44,620 nucleotides of DNA from Ignavibacteriota bacterium (GTDB lineage: Bacteria > Bacteroidota > Ignavibacteria > UBA10030), in the NCBI GenBank assembly GCA_003155495.1, contig PMDB01000068.1, positions 42,451-87,070 on the forward strand. Reading direction: 5' to 3'. A program made the translations under genes and the position numbers. Under the pieces are notes generated by a model. The model was given only the letters and a program-made list of their open reading frames with translations. It ran no database searches and was not told the DNA's origin. Every line of letters begins with the position of its first letter. The first letter of the stretch is position 1. Below are positions 21,480 through 37,684 of this stretch, piece after piece.

Positions 21480-22379
21480 CTACGCGACTTGCGCCGACAA
21501 TGCTCGTACCTGATTGGTAGCGTCGACATAAGTCTGAATGTTGCAGTAAATACTTTCCTTCTTGAGCCTTTGCTCCATGGCTTTCCCTTGCCCGAGTCCA
21601 ACCTCGAAACAAAGATATGAGTTTGGTTTGAGGTATTTCGGAGATTCCCTGATCAATCGCGTGAGGATCGTAATCCCGAGTGAGCCTCCATCAAAAGCCA
21701 GACGGGGCTCGCGTTGTGAAATTTCCGGATCCATGCTGCTGACCTTCGTCGATGGGATATACGGAGGGTTGCAGGTCACGAGATCCATTTTCTTATAAAA
21801 CTCGTCCGACTCAAACGCAGCAAAGAGATCACTCTGCTTGAATTCGACCCGGTTATCCAATTTCAAATTCTGTGCATTCTTTTGAGCAAGCACAACCGCA
21901 TCTTCGGAAAGATCTGACCCGAATATTCTCGACCGGGACTCATTTGAAGCGATGCCGAGTGCCACATTTCCAGATCCAGTGCATACATCCAGAATAGTAA
22001 CGGCACCCTGGGCATCTGCGATGGATTTTGCAATCGCAAGTGCTGCGTGACCGAGGATTTCAGTCTCGATTCGTGGTATTAAGGCCTCAGGACCTGCCAA
22101 TAATTCTATCCCCAGAAAATGTTGGCGTCCTGTGATATGGGCAAGGGGCAAGCCGGCGAGACGTTTTTCAACAAGACTCTGGAGTTGTATACGCGAATGA
22201 TCGTCTAACTCCGGAACGTTCTCTTGCGAGGCTTTCTGGACCGAAACAGGAACGCCTGCAGCGAAAAAACAGAGGGCCTTCAAGGTTGATTCTGGAGTTT
22301 CCTCTGGCTTGTCCGGCTGTGCTACCCATGAAGCTGTCAGACGATCCAAGAGTGTGTTGTAGAACGGGTCTGATCTCAC
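21480..22379 (-). CDS. PrmC/HemK-like N5-glutamine-type methyltransferase
   Basis: A 299-residue SAM-dependent methyltransferase of the PrmC/HemK type. The N-terminal helical part contains GRQHFLGIELLAGPEALIPRIETE, the conserved PRxETE motif. Motif I is DVCTGSGNVALG (131-142), and the catalytic NPPY is at 204-207, followed by EPRLAFDGGSLG. PrmC methylates the amide nitrogen of the GGQ glutamine of release factors. Here the gene lies inside a biosynthetic cassette instead of beside prfA, so a different amide substrate is possible. The start is GTG: the reverse strand reads GGAGG, eight bases, then GTG, while the overlapping ATG runs straight into TGA. If this were the genome's only prmC, the location would be unusual but not impossible. 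Confidence 0.82.
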   Translation of the reverse strand: MRSDPFYNTLLDRLTASWVAQPDKPEETPESTLKALCFFAAGVPVSVQKASQENVPELDDHSRIQLQSLVEKRLAGLPLAHITGRQHFLGIELLAGPEALIPRIETEILGHAALAIAKSIADAQGAVTILDVCTGSGNVALGIASNESRSRIFGSDLSEDAVVLAQKNAQNLKLDNRVEFKQSDLFAAFESDEFYKKMDLVTCNPPYIPSTKVSSMDPEISQREPRLAFDGGSLGITILTRLIRESPKYLKPNSYLCFEVGLGQGKAMEQRLKKESIYCNIQTYVDATNQVRALSAQVA

Positions 22380-28549: not shown

Positions 28550-31129
28550 ATGAAACACTTCTTTATCTTTACCTGTATAGCGGGTATGCTTATTTTTCAA
28601 ATTTCATTTTCTGCGAACGTTGAAAATAAGATGAAAATCAAGCTTCAAGAACATTGGAAATTTAAACAGGAAGATACCGGACACTGGTATCCAGCGGAAG
28701 TGCCAGGGTGCGTTCATACTGATCTGATGAGGAATAAGTCGATACCGGATCCATTTGTTGGCACAAACGAACAATCGCTGCAATGGATTGGTGAGAAGAA
28801 CTGGATCTATGAAACAACTTTTGACGTACCGGCAGAATTATTAAGTAAAGAAGTCGTTGAGCTTGTCTTTGAAGGACTGGATACCTACGCAGAAGTGGCT
28901 CTGAATGATTCGCTTGTCCTGAAAGCGAACAACATGTTCCGTACATGGAGGTTCGATTGCCGCAGTCTCTTACGAGAAAAAGGGAATCACATTGAAATTC
29001 GGTTTAGAAATGTCTTTGATGAAAATATGCCGAAGTATAAAGCTGCTCCTTTTGAACTTCAGGCATTTTCTAATAATGATCAAGCGGATGTAAAGATTGC
29101 CATGTATTCCCGTAAAGCGCAGTTTCATTACGGGTGGGACTGGGGCCCGCGCTTGATTACGTGCGGCATATGGCGTCCGATCTATTTAGAAGCGTGGAGT
29201 GATTTTAAAATACAGGATGTTCATATTCAGCAAAAGAATATTTCCGTATCCGATGCAGGTATACTTTCCGCAGTACATATTCTTTCTCAGAAAGAGCAAA
29301 AGGTTTCTGCCTCTGTTACCATGGATAGTGTCAATTTGTTGACGGAAATACTTCATCTCAAACCCGGGATGAATCAGATAGAACTCAGCGGGCATCTTGC
29401 CCATCCACAGCTCTGGTGGACGAATGGATTAGGTGCACAAAAACTTTACAAGTATCAAATAACCATAAAGGATGATTCTGGCCATCAGGATGTTTATTCG
29501 ACAGAGTTTGGTGTTCGATCCGTTGAAATTGTTCGAGAAAGGGATTCTCTCGGTACAAGCATGTTTGTTCGGTTGAATGGTGTTCCCGTATTCATGAAGG
29601 GAGCAAATTATATTCCCCAGGACAATTTTCAAAACAGAGTGACGAAAGAACGATGCGAACATATTGTCCGCTCAGCGGCAGAAGCTAATATGAATATGCT
29701 GCGTGTCTGGGGAGGTGGAAACTATGAGGACGATCAGTTCTATGAATTGTGTGACAGGTATGGAATTCTCGTTTGGCAGGAGATGAACTTTGCCTGTGCC
29801 ATGTATCCGGGTGACGACAAGTTTATGGAAAATGTTCGGCTGGAAGTCATCGACAACATTGTCCGCATGCGTAACCATGCGTGTATCGCATTGTATTGCG
29901 GAAATAATGAGAACGAAGTTGCATGGTATCAGTGGGGATGGAAAGAAAAATATGATGAAGGGGCACAACGCGCCTTCGAGCATGATGCAGAAAAACTATT
30001 TTATGAAGTGATTCCTTCAGCTATACGTAAAGCGGACACAACGCGATACTACCATCCCACCAGTCCTGGGGCGGGATTTAAAAATATATCAGCGAGTGAC
30101 GGCGATATTCACTATTGGGGAGTGTGGCATGGAAAGGAACCGTTTGAACGCTACACATCCAATCTTGCCCGCTTTGTGAGCGAGTACGGATTTCAATCAT
30201 ATCCGGAGTTATCGACGATTGTCCAGTATGCACAACCGGAAGACAGAACGCTTCATTCTGATGTCATGCTTTCTCATCAACGTTGTATGGCTGATGAGCG
30301 GCGCGACAAAGAGTATGGAAACAGGTTGATTCAATGGTATATGGATCAATCGTATCGTACGCCGAAAGATTTTGAATCGTATATTTATGTAAGTCAAGTG
30401 TTGCAGGCGGAAGGTGTGAAAGTGGCAATGGAATCGCATCGCCGTGCAATGCCCTTTTGCATGGGAAGTTTATACTGGCAAATCGATGATTGCTGGCCGG
30501 TTGCTTCGTGGTCAAGCATCGATTATTATGGACGATGGAAGGCGCTTCATTATACGGCGAAAAATTCCTACGCATCGGTTCTCATTTCACCTGTCCTGTC
30601 AGTGGATAATGTCAAGATTCATCTTGTATCAGACAAAGTAGAGAGCATCAATGCCCTACTCGATATAACTGTTTTGGATTTTGCAGGAAAGATCGTATCT
30701 CACAATTCGATGCCTGTGAACGTGAAACCGAACCATTCACAAATTGCTGCAACTCTTTCGACGTCGCAGCTTGTATCTGGTACCGATGAATCTCGCCTCG
30801 TGCTTCTCTGCCGTTTGAAACAGGGAGATACTCTGCTTGCGGAAAACATTTCCTATTTTAAATCTCCTAAGGATCTGGATCTCAAACATCCAAAATTTAT
30901 GCAGCATATCACAAAGTCAATTTCAGGATTTACAATAATATTGACAACAAATACACTGGCAAAAAATGTTTATCTTACCTGCAGTAATGCGAATGGATTC
31001 TTTAGCGATAATTATTTTGACCTGATTCCCGGAATCCCAAAGACAATAACAGTAAAGACTCAGCTTCAACAAGATGAGTTTAATCGATCGTTGAATATTG
31101 TCAGTTTAGTGGATAGTTATAAAGAATGA
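28550..31129 (+). CDS. Beta-mannosidase, GH2
   Basis: An 859-residue exported glycosidase. A signal peptide (about 1-22, ending FSA) is followed by the GH2 sugar-binding domain (LQEHWKFKQ, VPGCVHTDLM) and an immunoglobulin-like domain. The TIM barrel follows, with MKGANYIPQD and RVWGGGNYEDDQFYELCDRYGI. The catalytic acid/base is Glu454 in GNNENE and the nucleophile Glu545 in SEYGFQSYP, spaced as in known GH2 mannosidases. DWGPRLITCGIWRP is typical of beta-mannosidases as opposed to galactosidases or glucuronidases. It removes mannose from beta-1,4-mannooligosaccharides, probably in the periplasm, as no T9SS tail is present. GGAGAG precedes the ATG. The CE2 esterase gene follows closely in the same direction. 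Confidence 0.93.
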   Translation: MKHFFIFTCIAGMLIFQISFSANVENKMKIKLQEHWKFKQEDTGHWYPAEVPGCVHTDLMRNKSIPDPFVGTNEQSLQWIGEKNWIYETTFDVPAELLSKEVVELVFEGLDTYAEVALNDSLVLKANNMFRTWRFDCRSLLREKGNHIEIRFRNVFDENMPKYKAAPFELQAFSNNDQADVKIAMYSRKAQFHYGWDWGPRLITCGIWRPIYLEAWSDFKIQDVHIQQKNISVSDAGILSAVHILSQKEQKVSASVTMDSVNLLTEILHLKPGMNQIELSGHLAHPQLWWTNGLGAQKLYKYQITIKDDSGHQDVYSTEFGVRSVEIVRERDSLGTSMFVRLNGVPVFMKGANYIPQDNFQNRVTKERCEHIVRSAAEANMNMLRVWGGGNYEDDQFYELCDRYGILVWQEMNFACAMYPGDDKFMENVRLEVIDNIVRMRNHACIALYCGNNENEVAWYQWGWKEKYDEGAQRAFEHDAEKLFYEVIPSAIRKADTTRYYHPTSPGAGFKNISASDGDIHYWGVWHGKEPFERYTSNLARFVSEYGFQSYPELSTIVQYAQPEDRTLHSDVMLSHQRCMADERRDKEYGNRLIQWYMDQSYRTPKDFESYIYVSQVLQAEGVKVAMESHRRAMPFCMGSLYWQIDDCWPVASWSSIDYYGRWKALHYTAKNSYASVLISPVLSVDNVKIHLVSDKVESINALLDITVLDFAGKIVSHNSMPVNVKPNHSQIAATLSTSQLVSGTDESRLVLLCRLKQGDTLLAENISYFKSPKDLDLKHPKFMQHITKSISGFTIILTTNTLAKNVYLTCSNANGFFSDNYFDLIPGIPKTITVKTQLQQDEFNRSLNIVSLVDSYKE

Positions 31130-31166
31130 ATCTACGCCTTTCAAGAATAAGGAAGTGAGTGAAAAT

Positions 31167-32261
31167 ATGAATCATGTATTTCGGTTTCTGTTTATTGTTC
31201 TTCTCGTTCTAGGAGTTTCTACGATGTCGTATTCAACACATTTTATTCCCGCAAACAATAGTTTTATTCAGTATTACGGAAGATGGGATATGACCGATTC
31301 GCTTCATCCGCGGCATTCATGGCCCGGGGTGTATCTCTCTGCCGAATTCAGCGGAACAAGCATCGGAATACGTATGACTGATAGTATCAATTATTACAAT
31401 GTCTATATCGACGGCAAATTCTTAAAAGTCCTTCACGGAACAATCACAGGCGAGGCAGATTACCTGCTTGCTGATAGTTTGGTAAATATCCACCATACAC
31501 TTTTGTTCAGTAAAAGAAATATTATGTTCGATGCAGTTTTCTCAGTTTCAGGTCTATTGCTCGATGAAGGCGCAGATCTTTTTCCGCCGCAGGCAAAACC
31601 GACACGAAAAATTGAATTCATTGGGGATTCATTTACTGCCGCGGAAAGCAATGAAGCAACGGTTCAAGAATTGCCTTGGGAAGGACGATTTCCTGCGACA
31701 AATATCGATAAAGGATTCGCACCAGCTATCGCCCGGTATTATAACGCACAATACCAAACTACCTGCAGGTCAGGTGCCGGACTCGTGTGTGATTGGCAGG
31801 GGAAGCGGGATGGAACGCTGCCCATCTTCTTTGATAGAACGTTGATGGAAGCATCGGAGCCCAAATGGGATTTTTCGAAATGGATTCCAGATGTGGTCGT
31901 CGTATGTCTTGGGCTTAATGACCATTCCGGACTCAAAGATAAAGAAGGAAACGTGTCTATAGAGAAGTCTGAATTATTTCGTCAAAAATATCACGATTTT
32001 ATAAAAACAATTCGCATGGTGTATCCCGGGGTAAAAATCGTTGCGGTTGCTGCTTTTCCTGAATGGATACAAAAAAATGTTCAAGAAGTAGTGAAGGAAG
32101 AAACACAAAATGATAAAAAGGATGTATGCTATGCCCACTTCGATGATTTCCCCGGTGGGTATGTAGCGAACGGCCATCCTACCGTGGAGACACATCAAAA
32201 GATCGCTGCTCAAATCATCGATGCGATGGGAAAAAATAAAATATTCTCAGTGACAAAGTAA
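31167..32261 (+). CDS. Carbohydrate esterase family 2-like acetylesterase (intact copy)
   Basis: A 364-residue exported esterase. A signal peptide (about 1-23) is followed by a beta-sandwich (24-140; QYYGRWDMTDS, HSWPGVYLSAEF) and an SGNH domain starting KIEFIGDSFTA, which gives nucleophile Ser155. GLNDHSG follows, then GHPTVETH with His337. The two-domain order is that of CE2 enzymes, which deacetylate mannan, glucomannan or xylan backbones. A GTG start at 31155 is possible, but ATG 31167 gives a clean signal peptide. The gene lies 37 bases after the beta-mannosidase and 19 bases before a broken paralogue. It has no T9SS sorting domain, so it is probably periplasmic or outer-membrane soluble. 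Confidence 0.85.
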   Translation: MNHVFRFLFIVLLVLGVSTMSYSTHFIPANNSFIQYYGRWDMTDSLHPRHSWPGVYLSAEFSGTSIGIRMTDSINYYNVYIDGKFLKVLHGTITGEADYLLADSLVNIHHTLLFSKRNIMFDAVFSVSGLLLDEGADLFPPQAKPTRKIEFIGDSFTAAESNEATVQELPWEGRFPATNIDKGFAPAIARYYNAQYQTTCRSGAGLVCDWQGKRDGTLPIFFDRTLMEASEPKWDFSKWIPDVVVVCLGLNDHSGLKDKEGNVSIEKSELFRQKYHDFIKTIRMVYPGVKIVAVAAFPEWIQKNVQEVVKEETQNDKKDVCYAHFDDFPGGYVANGHPTVETHQKIAAQIIDAMGKNKIFSVTK

Positions 32262-32280: not shown

Positions 32281-34452
32281 ATGAAAAGAACTATGATGGT
32301 TTTATTGTTATCCTGTTTAGAATGTGGCATTCTTCATGCGGTGAATGTTATTCTTGCCAATCATCCGTATATTTAATATTTTGGAAGATGGGATTTTTCA
32401 GATTCTTTGGCACCAACCCATTCATGGCCGGGTGTGTATGTTTATGCTGAGTTTGAAGGAACAAGTATCGGCGTAAAAACTAACGATAATTTCAGTTACA
32501 ATAATGTGTTTATAGATGATTCATTATACACGATTTTTCATGGGAATATTTCAGGTATTGCTTCTTATACTCTAGTGTCAGGACTTACCAACGCCAATCA
32601 TAAAATATTATTTACCTTAAGAAGTGAATTGAACTGGACAAAATTTGCTTTCAATGGATTTGTTTTAGATAATGGGAAAAACCTTTTACATCCTCCGATT
32701 AAACCAGAAAAAAAGATTGAATTTATCGGAGACTCCTATACCGTCGCTTCAGGAAATGAGTGGACAGGGCAAGGTGGCGCGCCAAATGATTCTTATACGG
32801 ATATCTATAAAAGTTTTGGTCCCATGATCGCCAGAAATTATAACGCTCAGTATCAGATATCCGCTCGTGGCGGTTTTGGGCTTGTCTTAGACTATCTAGG
32901 GAATTATTCCAATAACCTCCCAAGCGAATTTGACCGGACTCTCGTGTATACACCAACACCTAAATGGGATTACTCAAATTGGGTGCCCAATTTAGTAGTT
33001 ATCTGTCTCGGATTGAATGATTATAATGGATGGGGCGGTTATTCAGGTCAGGTTGATCCTGCAAATGCTGTCATATATCGAAATAAGTACCATGAATTTA
33101 TCTCTACAATTATGGATGTGTATCCACACGTACAAATACTTGCTGTGGCTGCCAATGGCATCCAATGGATTAAGGATAATGTATCGCAAGTCGTTTCAGA
33201 AGAAAATTTATTGGGACACACGAATGTATTCTATGCATCGTTTCCATATTATAATGGGGGATATGTCAATAACGGACATCCAACGGTTGCCACGCACCAG
33301 AAGATCGCCGATACACTGGTTTCCGTTATTAATACCATCAATGCTTGGCAGCCTTACCCGCCCCGTATTACGAGATTGCCTTCCTCACCGTTTACTGCCT
33401 ACGATGTATCGTATGTTCTAAAAATTCAAACAGATTCATATGATACGCTGCGTTATATTACATCGGATAAACCGTATAGCGAAATGGAAAATGTATTCAC
33501 GACCACGGGAACGCGAAATCATTCGGTGACTCTTTCATTACAGCATGGCCATGAATATATGTACTATTTAAGGGCAATAGATCTCTACGGTCATGAGATG
33601 GATACATCGGCAGTCATTCATTTCTCGGTGGACACGACGAAACAAGTAGCTCACTGGACTTCGTTGTCGTATGATGATTCTCAATGGAAGAACGGACCGG
33701 CTCCATTGTCTAGTATCAATGATACCAGTACCGCAACGGAATTAGAAACAGTTACGACAGCATATTTTAGAAAAAAGATCATAATCGATAGCACTGAAAA
33801 TATTCCTTCAATTGTTCTTTGGGTAAAAGGACATAATGGAGCAATCATCTACGTCAATGAGCAAGAAGTTCTGCGATTCAACCTGCCTACAGGGAGAGAA
33901 ATTACTTACAGTACATATGCACAAGATTCATTGATCTTTACTCAAAAGACAACCTCGGTCCTTAAAAATATTCTCCGAAGGGGTGAAAATAGTATTGCAA
34001 TAGAAATGCATAGTGCGAAAAGACAAAATATGAGTCTGAGTTTCGATTCATAATTAACAGGTGGAAGCACACAAATCAATTACCCTTATGGTTCAGCGTG
34101 GCATTATTATGATGGGGGAAATATGCCGGGCGACCAAGTGCAAGCTAAAACATCAGATGTCACTCAGGGGATGGAAGGCCTCTTGCCCAAGAAAATGATT
34201 CTGTATGCGAATTATCCTAATCCGTTCAATCCGATAACAACCATTCGATATGAACTGTCTGCGAAGAGCCATGTTTCAATGAAAATATTTGATCTGCTTG
34301 GAAGAGAAATCGTAACTCTTGTTGATGATGCAAAGCCGGAAGGAATATATAGCGTACAAATTAATGCTGGCACTCTTTCTAGTGGAATGTATTTCTGCCG
34401 GCTTCAAGCCGGTACTTCTGTCGCGGTCGGCAAGCTTATGTTGGTTAAATAA
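32281..34452 (+). pseudogene. CE2-like acetylesterase with T9SS tail, interrupted by two in-frame TAA codons
   Basis: One reading frame runs from ATG 32281 to the stop at 34450-34452 (723 codons) except for TAA at 32374-32376 (codon 32) and TAA at 34051-34053 (codon 591). Before the first stop is a signal-peptide-like start (MKRTMMVLLLSCLECG). Right after it come YFGRWDFSDS and the CE2 beta-sandwich, then the SGNH domain with IGDSYTV (Ser152) and GHPTVATH. A fibronectin-like segment and a beta-sandwich (YDDSQWKNGPAPL) follow, and after the second stop a T9SS sorting domain (NYPNPFNPITTIRYEL). In the intact paralogue the first stop position is a glutamine (FIQYYGRWD). No frameshift is seen, so decay is recent or the stops are read through. 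It paralogues the gene at 31167-32261. Confidence 0.85.
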
Positions 34453-34648
34453 CTATCGATGAACATGTGATGATCCGATTATTATTTTAAGAATGTTTAT
34501 CAAAGGGATAGAGTGAAATCATAATGAATTCCTTTCTTTTTAGTACGAAATATTAGAAAAAGTCATGGCATATCAATTGTTAAAGATTCTATGATAACCG
34601 CCGTTGTTGAACAAACAACAGAAAATTTACCTGAGAAGAAAAATATCT

Positions 34649-36004
34649 ATGCAAGAACAAGCCGTTATAAATAAAGAAATGCAAAAAGCATTTATGGATG
34701 GAATACTTAAAAAATGGTATCCGTTGGTTCTTGATAAAAAATGCGGGGGATACTTTACCAATGTTACTCATGACTGGAAATTAGCTCCGCAGCAAGAAAA
34801 GATGATAGTGTCGCAAGCCCGGCATGTATGGGTGTTGTCCAAGGCGAGCGAATTTTTTGGCGGTGTGCAGGAGTATGAGCAAATGGCCCGCCATGGTTTT
34901 TCTTTTCTGAAAAACAGCATGTGGGATAGAGAGTACGGAGGATTTTTCCAAATTCGAAGTCGCGACGGCGGAATGTCGAATGTCAATGGATGGCGGGATG
35001 AAAAGCGTGCATATGGAAATGCATTCGCTGTGTATGCCCTTGCCGCACTCTATGCGCAAACTCATGACGCGGAAGTGTTGGAGTTTGCGCAAATGGCTTT
35101 TCATTGGATTGAAGGCCATGCCTACGATTCGAAAGGTAAAGGGTACTTTCAATTTATTATGCGGACAGGGAAGCCGTTTGATAATTCATCGGAGTATAAA
35201 ACAATTGCTTCCGATGGTAACGAGCTTGGATTCAAGGATCAAAATTCTTCAATTCATTTAATGGAGGCATTCACTGAACTGTATCATGTTTGGAAGGATC
35301 CTCTGGTACGAACACGTCTTCAGGAACTTCTCGAATTGATTCGTGATACACAGGTGGCACAACAAGGTTATCTGCAATTATTCTTCCACAATGATTGGAC
35401 ACCTGTTACTTTTCGTGATAGTTCCCGGGAGGAACGGGAAGCGAATTTTGGATTAGATCATGTCTCATTCGGCCACGATTATGAAACTGCATTTCTGATG
35501 CTGGAAGCCTCCTATGCACTGCACTTGAAGGACGATATATGCACGCTCACTATTGCAAAAAAGATGCTCGATCATGCTCTGAAGTATGGATGGGATAAAC
35601 AAAACGGCGGTTTTTGTGACGGCGGGTACTATTTTAAGGGGGATAACCACTGTACTATTATCAAAGGTACAAAAAATTGGTGGGCACAAGCCGAGGGACT
35701 AAATGCATTACTCCTGTTTGCTAAAATTTTTCCTCAAGAGACACAATACCATGAATATTTCCTCCGTCAATGGGAATATATACAATCTTTTATCATTGAT
35801 GCACGAGGCGGAGACTGGTTTGAAGGCGGTATCGATAAAGAACCTCATTATCGTACGGGTCCCAAAAGCCATATGTGGAAATGTACCTATCACACAGGTC
35901 GGACTCTTATGAATTGCAGTACGATTCTCCGGGGAGATCCCAGCAAACAAGTAAACAAGTTTATCGAACATTGGCACAAAACCGCTGAACTGCTTCCAAA
36001 ATAG
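34649..36004 (+). CDS. Mannobiose/cellobiose 2-epimerase (AGE family)
   Basis: A 451-residue protein of the N-acylglucosamine 2-epimerase fold, (alpha/alpha)6 barrel. SQARHVWVLSKA, RAYGNAFAVYALAALY, LDHVSFGHDYETAFL and KCTYHTGRTLMNC carry the conserved histidines of cellobiose 2-epimerases. These enzymes turn the reducing-end sugar of a beta-1,4 disaccharide into its C2 epimer. Because a GH130 mannosylglucose phosphorylase lies next to it (convergent, 58 bases away), the likely reaction is beta-1,4-mannobiose to mannosyl-glucose, as in the Bacteroides fragilis mannan pathway. No signal peptide is seen, so it is cytoplasmic. A longer form from TTG 34604 exists, but ATG 34649 is preferred as it matches the family N-terminus (QAFMDGILKKWYP-like). 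Confidence 0.88.
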   Translation: MQEQAVINKEMQKAFMDGILKKWYPLVLDKKCGGYFTNVTHDWKLAPQQEKMIVSQARHVWVLSKASEFFGGVQEYEQMARHGFSFLKNSMWDREYGGFFQIRSRDGGMSNVNGWRDEKRAYGNAFAVYALAALYAQTHDAEVLEFAQMAFHWIEGHAYDSKGKGYFQFIMRTGKPFDNSSEYKTIASDGNELGFKDQNSSIHLMEAFTELYHVWKDPLVRTRLQELLELIRDTQVAQQGYLQLFFHNDWTPVTFRDSSREEREANFGLDHVSFGHDYETAFLMLEASYALHLKDDICTLTIAKKMLDHALKYGWDKQNGGFCDGGYYFKGDNHCTIIKGTKNWWAQAEGLNALLLFAKIFPQETQYHEYFLRQWEYIQSFIIDARGGDWFEGGIDKEPHYRTGPKSHMWKCTYHTGRTLMNCSTILRGDPSKQVNKFIEHWHKTAELLPK

Positions 36005-36062: not shown

Positions 36063-37250
36063 CTACTTGCGGTGAAGCTTTTCGAGATTTCTATTAATAA
36101 GTTGTATACGTTGCTGAAGGTTTGGACCTGTCTTTAATCCATCTTCTGGAGTGTTGAGTACATAATCAAGCAATTGACCGACAGTGGAAACAGCCACGTG
36201 CATTCTAGTATCCGATGAGCCATAATAGACAAACACTTCGCCATTGTCACGCCTTACCCATCCATTACTGAAGACGACATTTGAGACATCCCCCACACGC
36301 TCAGCCCCTTGGGGAGCTAAAAAATATCCTCCCGGTCGAGCGATGACTTTTGAAGGATCTTTTAGGTCGGTAAGGAACATATATAAAACATAACGTAGTC
36401 CTGCGGCAGTATTCCGGACACCATGTGCAAGCTGCAGCCAACCTTTTGCTGTTTTGATTGGAGCAGGGCCTAAACCGTTTTTGACTTCTTTTATGGTATG
36501 ATAGGAGCGGTCATCAATAATGATTTCACTCTCAACCACTGCATGCTCAATTTTCTCAGATAGACCCCACCCGATGCCGCCACCTGACCCTGCTTCGATG
36601 AAACCGTCTTGCGGCCGTGTATAAAATGCGTACTTGCCATGAACAAATTCCGGATGAAGAACAACGTTTCTTTGTTGTGGAGATTTTGTAACCAAATCTG
36701 GCAATCGCTCCCACTTTAAAAAATCTTTGGTTCTGACAATACCGCATTGTGCAATAGCAGAAGAAGTGTCAGTTCGTGGAACATTGGTGTCTTTCCGTTC
36801 TGTGCAAAACAAACCATAGATCCATTCATCCTCGTGCTTCACGAGGCGCATGTCATAGACATTGACATCAGCATCAGGCATTTCTGTAAGCTGGATCGGA
36901 TAATCCCAGAATCGGAAATTGTCGACTCCATTGGGAGATTCTGCGATAGCGAAAAACGATTTTCGATCTGACCCTTCTACACGGACCACTAAAAGGATAT
37001 TTCCATGATGTTCGATTGCACCTGCATTGAATGTTCCGTTCACTCCAATTCGCTCCATCAAATATGGATTGGCATCGTAATTCAAATCGTATCGCCAAAT
37101 GAGAGGTGTATGTTCAGCCGTTACAACCGGATTGATATATCGTTGATAGATACCATTTCCTTTTTCAACTTTTGTATTCTTTGTCGAAAGGAAAGCATCG
37201 TGGTTTTTCAACAGTTGTTGTACCTTTTGATCAAATTCTGTTTTTGTCAT
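36063..37250 (-). CDS. 4-O-beta-D-mannosyl-D-glucose phosphorylase (GH130 subfamily 1)
   Basis: A 395-residue cytoplasmic glycoside phosphorylase. Characteristic blocks are [64 protein letters not shown] (the Asp of YDM, residue 133, corresponds to the catalytic proton donor), GLFCTERKD and NVVLHPEFV. This is the GH130_1 pattern, which phosphorolyses mannosyl-beta-1,4-glucose to mannose-1-phosphate and glucose. It therefore uses the product of the epimerase next door. A TTG start at 37268 is possible, but ATG 37250 is preceded by AAAGGA eight bases upstream. Mannose-1-phosphate could feed GDP-mannose synthesis, linking to the epimerase-like gene at the window end. Confidence 0.92.
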
Positions 37251-37684
37251 TTCTTTGGTCCTTTGCAAATGTCTTTTTGTACTAACACAATGTTACGAGA
37301 TTCTGTTTCTGGGGTTTCCTTGCTGAGCATTTTCCTTCAATCTTACACATAAATGATGCCATAAACATCCAAGCAGGTATCAATGTCGTTTCCATACAAT
37401 ATTCATTTATGATTTATCAGGTTAAAAATAAGTTATGGAAATGATAAATTCAATTAGGAATCATTTTTTTTGAGCAAAGAACAAAGGAAAAATTATGCTG
37501 TGGAACTGATTTTTGATGGCAAAGACTTTGTCTGTTGTTTTATGTCAAGAATAATCCTATAATCCTTTCGGAAAAAACTGTGAAGAGGTCGCGTGCCGAT
37601 AGGTTGTCACGCGATATGGTGCTGATGAGATTCACGGAGTAATCAAAAATATTTCCATAACAATTCATTTATAAGGAGCTGCGG
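37251..37684. promoter_or_regulatory. Divergent control region with an inverted repeat
   Basis: This 434-base region separates the divergent GH130 (minus) and aldo/keto reductase (plus) genes and must contain both promoters. TCGCGTG (37589-37595) and CACGCGA (37608-37614) form a perfect 7-base inverted repeat with a 12-base spacer about 70 bases before the reductase start. It could be an operator or a leader hairpin. TAAGGAGC just before ATG 37685 is the reductase ribosome-binding site. Confidence 0.4.

Follow-up and report, generated by a model that had tools for sequence, protein, structure and literature searches.

Gene layout and domain content

The window analyzed here is a stretch of 44,620 nucleotides of contig C100 in the draft genome of an Ignavibacteriota bacterium. 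At 32281..34452 on its forward strand lies a long gene of the CE2 esterase type, the frame of which comprises 723 residues or stops followed by a final TAA. In-frame TAA codons interrupt this frame at only two places: codon 32 (32374..32376, forward strand), between the signal peptide and the CE2_N domain, and codon 591 (34051..34053, forward strand), upstream of the C-terminal sorting tail. Translation, Pfam searches and the intact full-length homologues found in 14 genomes agree on the order of its parts, namely a signal peptide, a CE2_N domain, a GDSL/SGNH domain, a middle region and a T9SS type A sorting tail. In the translation with X in place of each stop, the Pfam matches cover residues 33-139 (CE2_N), 148-297 (Lipase_GDSL_2, which scores just under its gathering score) and 645-719 (Por_Secre_tail). 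All of them lie in a single frame, and no frameshift was found within 32281..34452. The first-pass annotation of this DNA, made from the sequence alone, had described a frame running continuously from signal peptide to sorting domain save for TAA at 32374 and 34051, with no accompanying frameshift, and on both counts translation and domain matches bear it out.

The longest open stretch left between the lesions (32407..34053, forward strand) is a mechanically called frame of 548 codons starting from TTG, which retains the esterase and the middle region and lacks both the signal peptide and the T9SS tail. The C-terminal stretch with the Por_Secre_tail domain (34123..34452, forward strand) is orphaned. 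The open middle stretch aligns to 2wao over its residues 3-314 (E 7.6e-35), and the regions around the GDS and H-P motifs match the solved CE2 enzymes 2wao and 2wab. Against the NCBIfam AxeC2 equivalog (NF042969) the gene attains 103 bits, far below the cut-off of 500. As judged from these matches, the full-length product is a predicted secreted acetyl-esterase with a T9SS tail.

Genomic neighborhood and presence in close relatives

The long CE2 gene sits in what looks like a β-mannan utilization cluster. Directly upstream is an intact short CE2 esterase paralog without a T9SS tail (31155..32261, forward strand; start at GTG 31155 or ATG 31167), and the CE2 pair is adjoined by a gene for a GH2 family β-mannosidase-like enzyme (28550..31129, forward strand). 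Downstream follow a cellobiose 2-epimerase-like gene of the AGE family (34604..36004, forward strand) and a GH130 mannoside phosphorylase-like gene on the reverse strand (36063..37268); further members of the cluster include an aldo/keto reductase (AKR) and more T9SS proteins.

The nearest sampled relative, G004, keeps this cluster at 75-90% protein identity: 90% for the MFS protein, 87% for ROK, 85% each for GH130 and AKR, 82% for the epimerase, 79% for the short CE2 esterase, which occupies the same place, and 75% each for GH2 and the SGL protein. The gap of about 160 bases between its short CE2 and epimerase genes holds no long CE2 gene, and indeed no gene at all. A long CE2 gene of G004 lies about 25 kb away from the cluster site and is 55% identical to that of the window, a value so far below that of the cluster neighbors that the two are probably not strict orthologs. 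In a second relative, G005, short and long CE2 genes stand side by side, as in the window. Given its absence from the G004 site and its presence beside the short CE2 gene in G005, the long CE2 gene is accessory, coming and going among close relatives. Its loss is therefore plausible, the more so as an intact short CE2 gene is kept next door.

Outside the window and upstream of it, at contig positions C100:30789-31000, the frame of a glycosyltransferase gene continues after its TAA with a short remnant (GATATLNEAMREGCAFVGTDSAG...) resembling a glycosyltransferase C-terminus, which is probably debris left by a further glycosyltransferase gene in the polysaccharide locus.

Conservation at the two stop sites

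The homolog set consisted of 14 full-length sequences from 14 genomes. Every one of them is open at both stop sites, from the signal peptide through to the T9SS tail, and neither TAA is shared with any. At the column of codon 32, 12 of the 14 carry glutamine (CAA or CAG) and two carry histidine (CAC). The short paralog also has glutamine here, encoded by CAG within FIQYYGRWD, just as the first-pass annotation had read it. The column of codon 591 is more varied, with glutamine in nine homologs, lysine in two, and serine, arginine and tyrosine in one each; the five nearest rows of the tree have TCG, TAC, CAG, AAA and AAA (Ser, Tyr, Gln, Lys and Lys). Since all 14 homologs are open at these positions, both TAA codons are best understood as lesions, and not as natural ends or the junction of two genes. 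One arrangement specifically looked for was that of orthologs ending naturally at codon 591, with the downstream segment belonging to a separate gene. It is ruled out, as none of the 14 ends there and all run on into the T9SS tail.

The suggestion that each stop arose by a single CAA-to-TAA transition fares differently at the two sites. At the first, the glutamine codons of the homologs make CAA the likely ancestral codon; at the second, a CAA ancestor is not well supported and remains unproven, because the five nearest homologs differ there.

The same comparison bears on the idea that part of the gene has been put to a new use, with the 548-codon stretch 32407..34053 yielding, through initiation inside the gene, an esterase that is not exported, and the rest persisting as a remnant. 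Such a reading would be in keeping with the open and conserved catalytic region, but its start would be a TTG ten residues into CE2_N with no signal peptide, an organization found in none of the 14 relatives. Moreover, the middle region contained in this stretch normally precedes a T9SS export tail, which would be lost. We regard re-use of this kind as highly unlikely.

Termination machinery and genetic code

A more radical alternative, offered by the first-pass annotation beside that of gene death, is that TAA is read through or locally recoded, for example as glutamine, at both sites, so that a full-length secreted esterase is made. The frame, open on both sides of the stops and under normal constraint, would suit this, as would the predominance of glutamine among the homologs at both sites; against it stand several properties of the genome and of the sites themselves.

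By ARAGORN anticodon calls, none of the 35 tRNA matches in the genome has an anticodon reading UAA; among these matches are a weak one on C89 (31.6 bits), left uncalled by ARAGORN, and one on C84 that an NN interrupts. The search for a suppressor tRNA that had been proposed thus yielded no candidate for UAA. The C84 gene (C84:37527-37605) is peculiar in that the NN falls in the D-arm region and ARAGORN reads a four-base "anticodon", acag. Rather than an unusual tRNA, this is most probably an assembly join accompanied by a short duplication. The gene for RF1 (prfA) is intact, with no internal stop. That for RF2 (prfB) is split over two contig ends, its N-terminal part lying at the start of C1 and its C-terminal part at the start of C107. 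Bearing likewise on UAA termination, the window itself encodes on its reverse strand an intact PrmC, the release-factor glutamine methyltransferase, with its NPPY motif (21480..22379). PrmC methylates both RF1 and RF2.

Of the 62 long frames on contig C100, 28 end in TAA, more than in any other stop. Past a TAA the frame closes about as early as it does past the other two stops, the median distance to the next in-frame stop being 12 codons after TAA, 7 after TGA and 18 after TAG. No internal stop was found in 224 matches to domains of three families in the genome, which by a rough estimate cover some 20,000 codons. The tRNA set, the release factors, the use of TAA as a stop and these stop-free domain matches together lead us to reject genome-wide recoding of TAA, which the first-pass annotation had already deemed unlikely on the ground that TAA ends other genes of the window. 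Both stops stand in a UAA-U context, and the RNA after either folds no better than shuffled sequences (z 0.56 and 0.77), and on this ground we reject programmed readthrough via a downstream structure.

UAA is the least leaky of bacterial stops, with reported readthrough ranging from 9x10^-4 to below 10^-5 (PMC4989110), and two such codons in series would therefore yield at most about 10^-6 full-length product. The bacterial stop reassignments discussed in the portion of PMC8629427 considered here concern UGA. Taken together, the lack of a UAA-reading tRNA among the matches, the presence of release factors and PrmC, the prevalence of TAA as a stop, the 224 stop-free matches and the tightness of UAA make readthrough improbable, as does the absence of both stops from the 14 relatives, and we give it only a very slight chance. 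Slighter still is that of a special form of it, in which both UAA codons would be decoded, probably as glutamine, by an unrecognized, condition-dependent suppression under an otherwise standard code, the full-length esterase being made only in some states.

Assembly quality and other broken genes

The genome is a draft assembly of 3.59 Mb in 119 contigs, 97% complete, and its kin are Ignavibacteriota metagenome-assembled genomes (MAGs). It is possible in principle that one or both TAA codons are consensus or assembly errors of the metagenome, or variants of a minority strain picked by the assembler, the gene being intact in most cells. The normal constraint of the long CE2 gene would fit an intact gene, and the assembly does have faulty joins, as witnessed by N pairs at about position 3159 of C107, on C89 and on C47, and by the split RF2 gene. 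Yet base substitutions are not among the faults seen, which consist of N joins and frame shifts. The window, which spans exactly the interval between the N runs at C100:42449-42450 and C100:87071-87074, is itself free of N. Two independent substitution errors, each creating a stop, in one gene are hardly to be expected when none occurs in the 224 domain matches. We therefore consider an artifact unlikely.

Elsewhere in the assembly, NN pairs coincide with shifts of the coding frame in an ABC transporter gene (the C107 site) and in T9SS genes (those on C89 and C47), which indicates that scaffold joins create false frameshifts. Among other broken T9SS genes, for which tails with short open frames were examined, the causes were frameshifts, NN joins or remnants, and in none was an in-frame TAA the lesion; such breakage is evidently not rare in this assembly, and the assembly has faults. 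For the T9SS proteins at C26:56594-56800 and C47:12213-12437, body and tail are encoded in different frames, the C26 stretch being N-free, and these are either true frameshift pseudogenes or assembly errors. A further candidate for an in-frame interruption, C100:10570-13150, was discarded as three separate genes, which from their translations encode an SLBB-type exporter, a NusG-like protein and a nucleotide-sugar dehydrogenase.

Constraint and age of the lesions

The comparison with orthologs proposed in the first-pass annotation succeeded to the extent that 14 homologs could be read at both sites; for constraint, the syntenic place in G004 holds no strict ortholog, and the rows compared are copies at other places, the nearest about 53-55% identical, so that they gauge a recent loss of constraint only indirectly. 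In a leave-one-out comparison of five sequences, the window gene departs at 11% of the columns that are invariant in the four other close homologs, for which the corresponding values are 10.5-17.6%. When 15 sequences are compared, near-invariant columns show a departure in 8% of cases for the window gene and in 0-14% for the others. A long-dead gene would be expected to exceed its relatives in such departures, and this one does not. Its end branch in the tree measures 0.48, and those of the two nearest rows 0.54 and 0.61. Differences by codon position in the five-sequence comparison follow the usual pattern: variation is by far the greatest at the third position, where about 60% of codons differ, a level near saturation.

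By computation, two nonsense hits would go with roughly 40-50 random substitutions (range about 5 to 190). Normal constraint and the absence of indels point to the low end of this range, and hence to a recent death of the gene, as does the lack of excess branch length. Among the random nonsense paths open to this gene, CAA-to-TAA changes account for only about 5-13%.

A probable young pseudogene in an accessory function

In light of the above, we consider it most probable that the long CE2 gene is a young pseudogene. Of the two options that the first-pass annotation had left standing, recent death by two nonsense changes is favored by the open homologs, the normal constraint and the dispensability of the gene. 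The lesions fall where homologs are open, little further decay is seen, and the gene is dispensable, being absent from G004 and having a paralog upstream. An accessory acetyl-esterase gene with a T9SS tail, situated in a β-mannan cluster, would have acquired two nonsense codons. Under the standard code, translation would stop once 31 codons had been read, where the signal peptide region ends. Were it to begin instead at an internal codon such as TTG 32407, any product would be missing the signal peptide and the T9SS tail together with some ten residues of CE2_N, and would presumably not be secretable in the normal way. The loss was presumably tolerated owing to the intact short CE2 gene upstream and to the dispensability suggested by the observed presence and absence of the long gene among relatives.

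Two points weigh against the pseudogene reading. Two nonsense codons without an indel are a minority pattern, though not a remarkable one, and both TAA codons fall in columns where glutamine is the commonest residue, despite the small share of nonsense paths that lead from CAA to TAA. The case is in itself of little importance: it provides a clean example of a just-broken accessory gene of polysaccharide degradation in an uncultured lineage, present or absent between close species. More generally, an open frame around stops, combined with normal constraint, is how a very young pseudogene looks, and is by itself no evidence of recoding.

Comparison with known systems

The long CE2 gene shares CE2_N and a GDSL/SGNH esterase domain with the CE2 family, as exemplified by the CE2 domain of endoglucanase E (PDB: 2wao, 2wab) and by the AxeC2 family (NF042969), and differs from these in its additional middle region and T9SS type A tail, as well as in the two TAA codons. 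Closer counterparts are the CE2-T9SS homologs in Ignavibacteriota, Bacteroidota and KSB1 MAGs (e.g. fen_1300, fen_1299, SURF_24 and SKW296), which have the same domain order, a similar length (732-832 codons from stop to stop) and 44-55% identity, but are all uninterrupted. Bacterial stop-codon reassignment, in which UGA becomes coding, likewise places in-frame stops within a conserved frame, as far as described in the portion of PMC8629427 considered; in the present case, by contrast, the codon is UAA, only one gene is affected and no matching tRNA was found. In Salmonella, premature stops are a frequent cause of inactivation, accounting for 131 of 346 pseudogenes with a single lesion, and only 32 of 378 pseudogenes have more than one lesion (PMC2916853). 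The young pseudogenes of that genus, with premature stop(s) in an otherwise undecayed gene, resemble the window gene, which differs from them in carrying two nonsense lesions rather than one and in belonging to an uncultured species.
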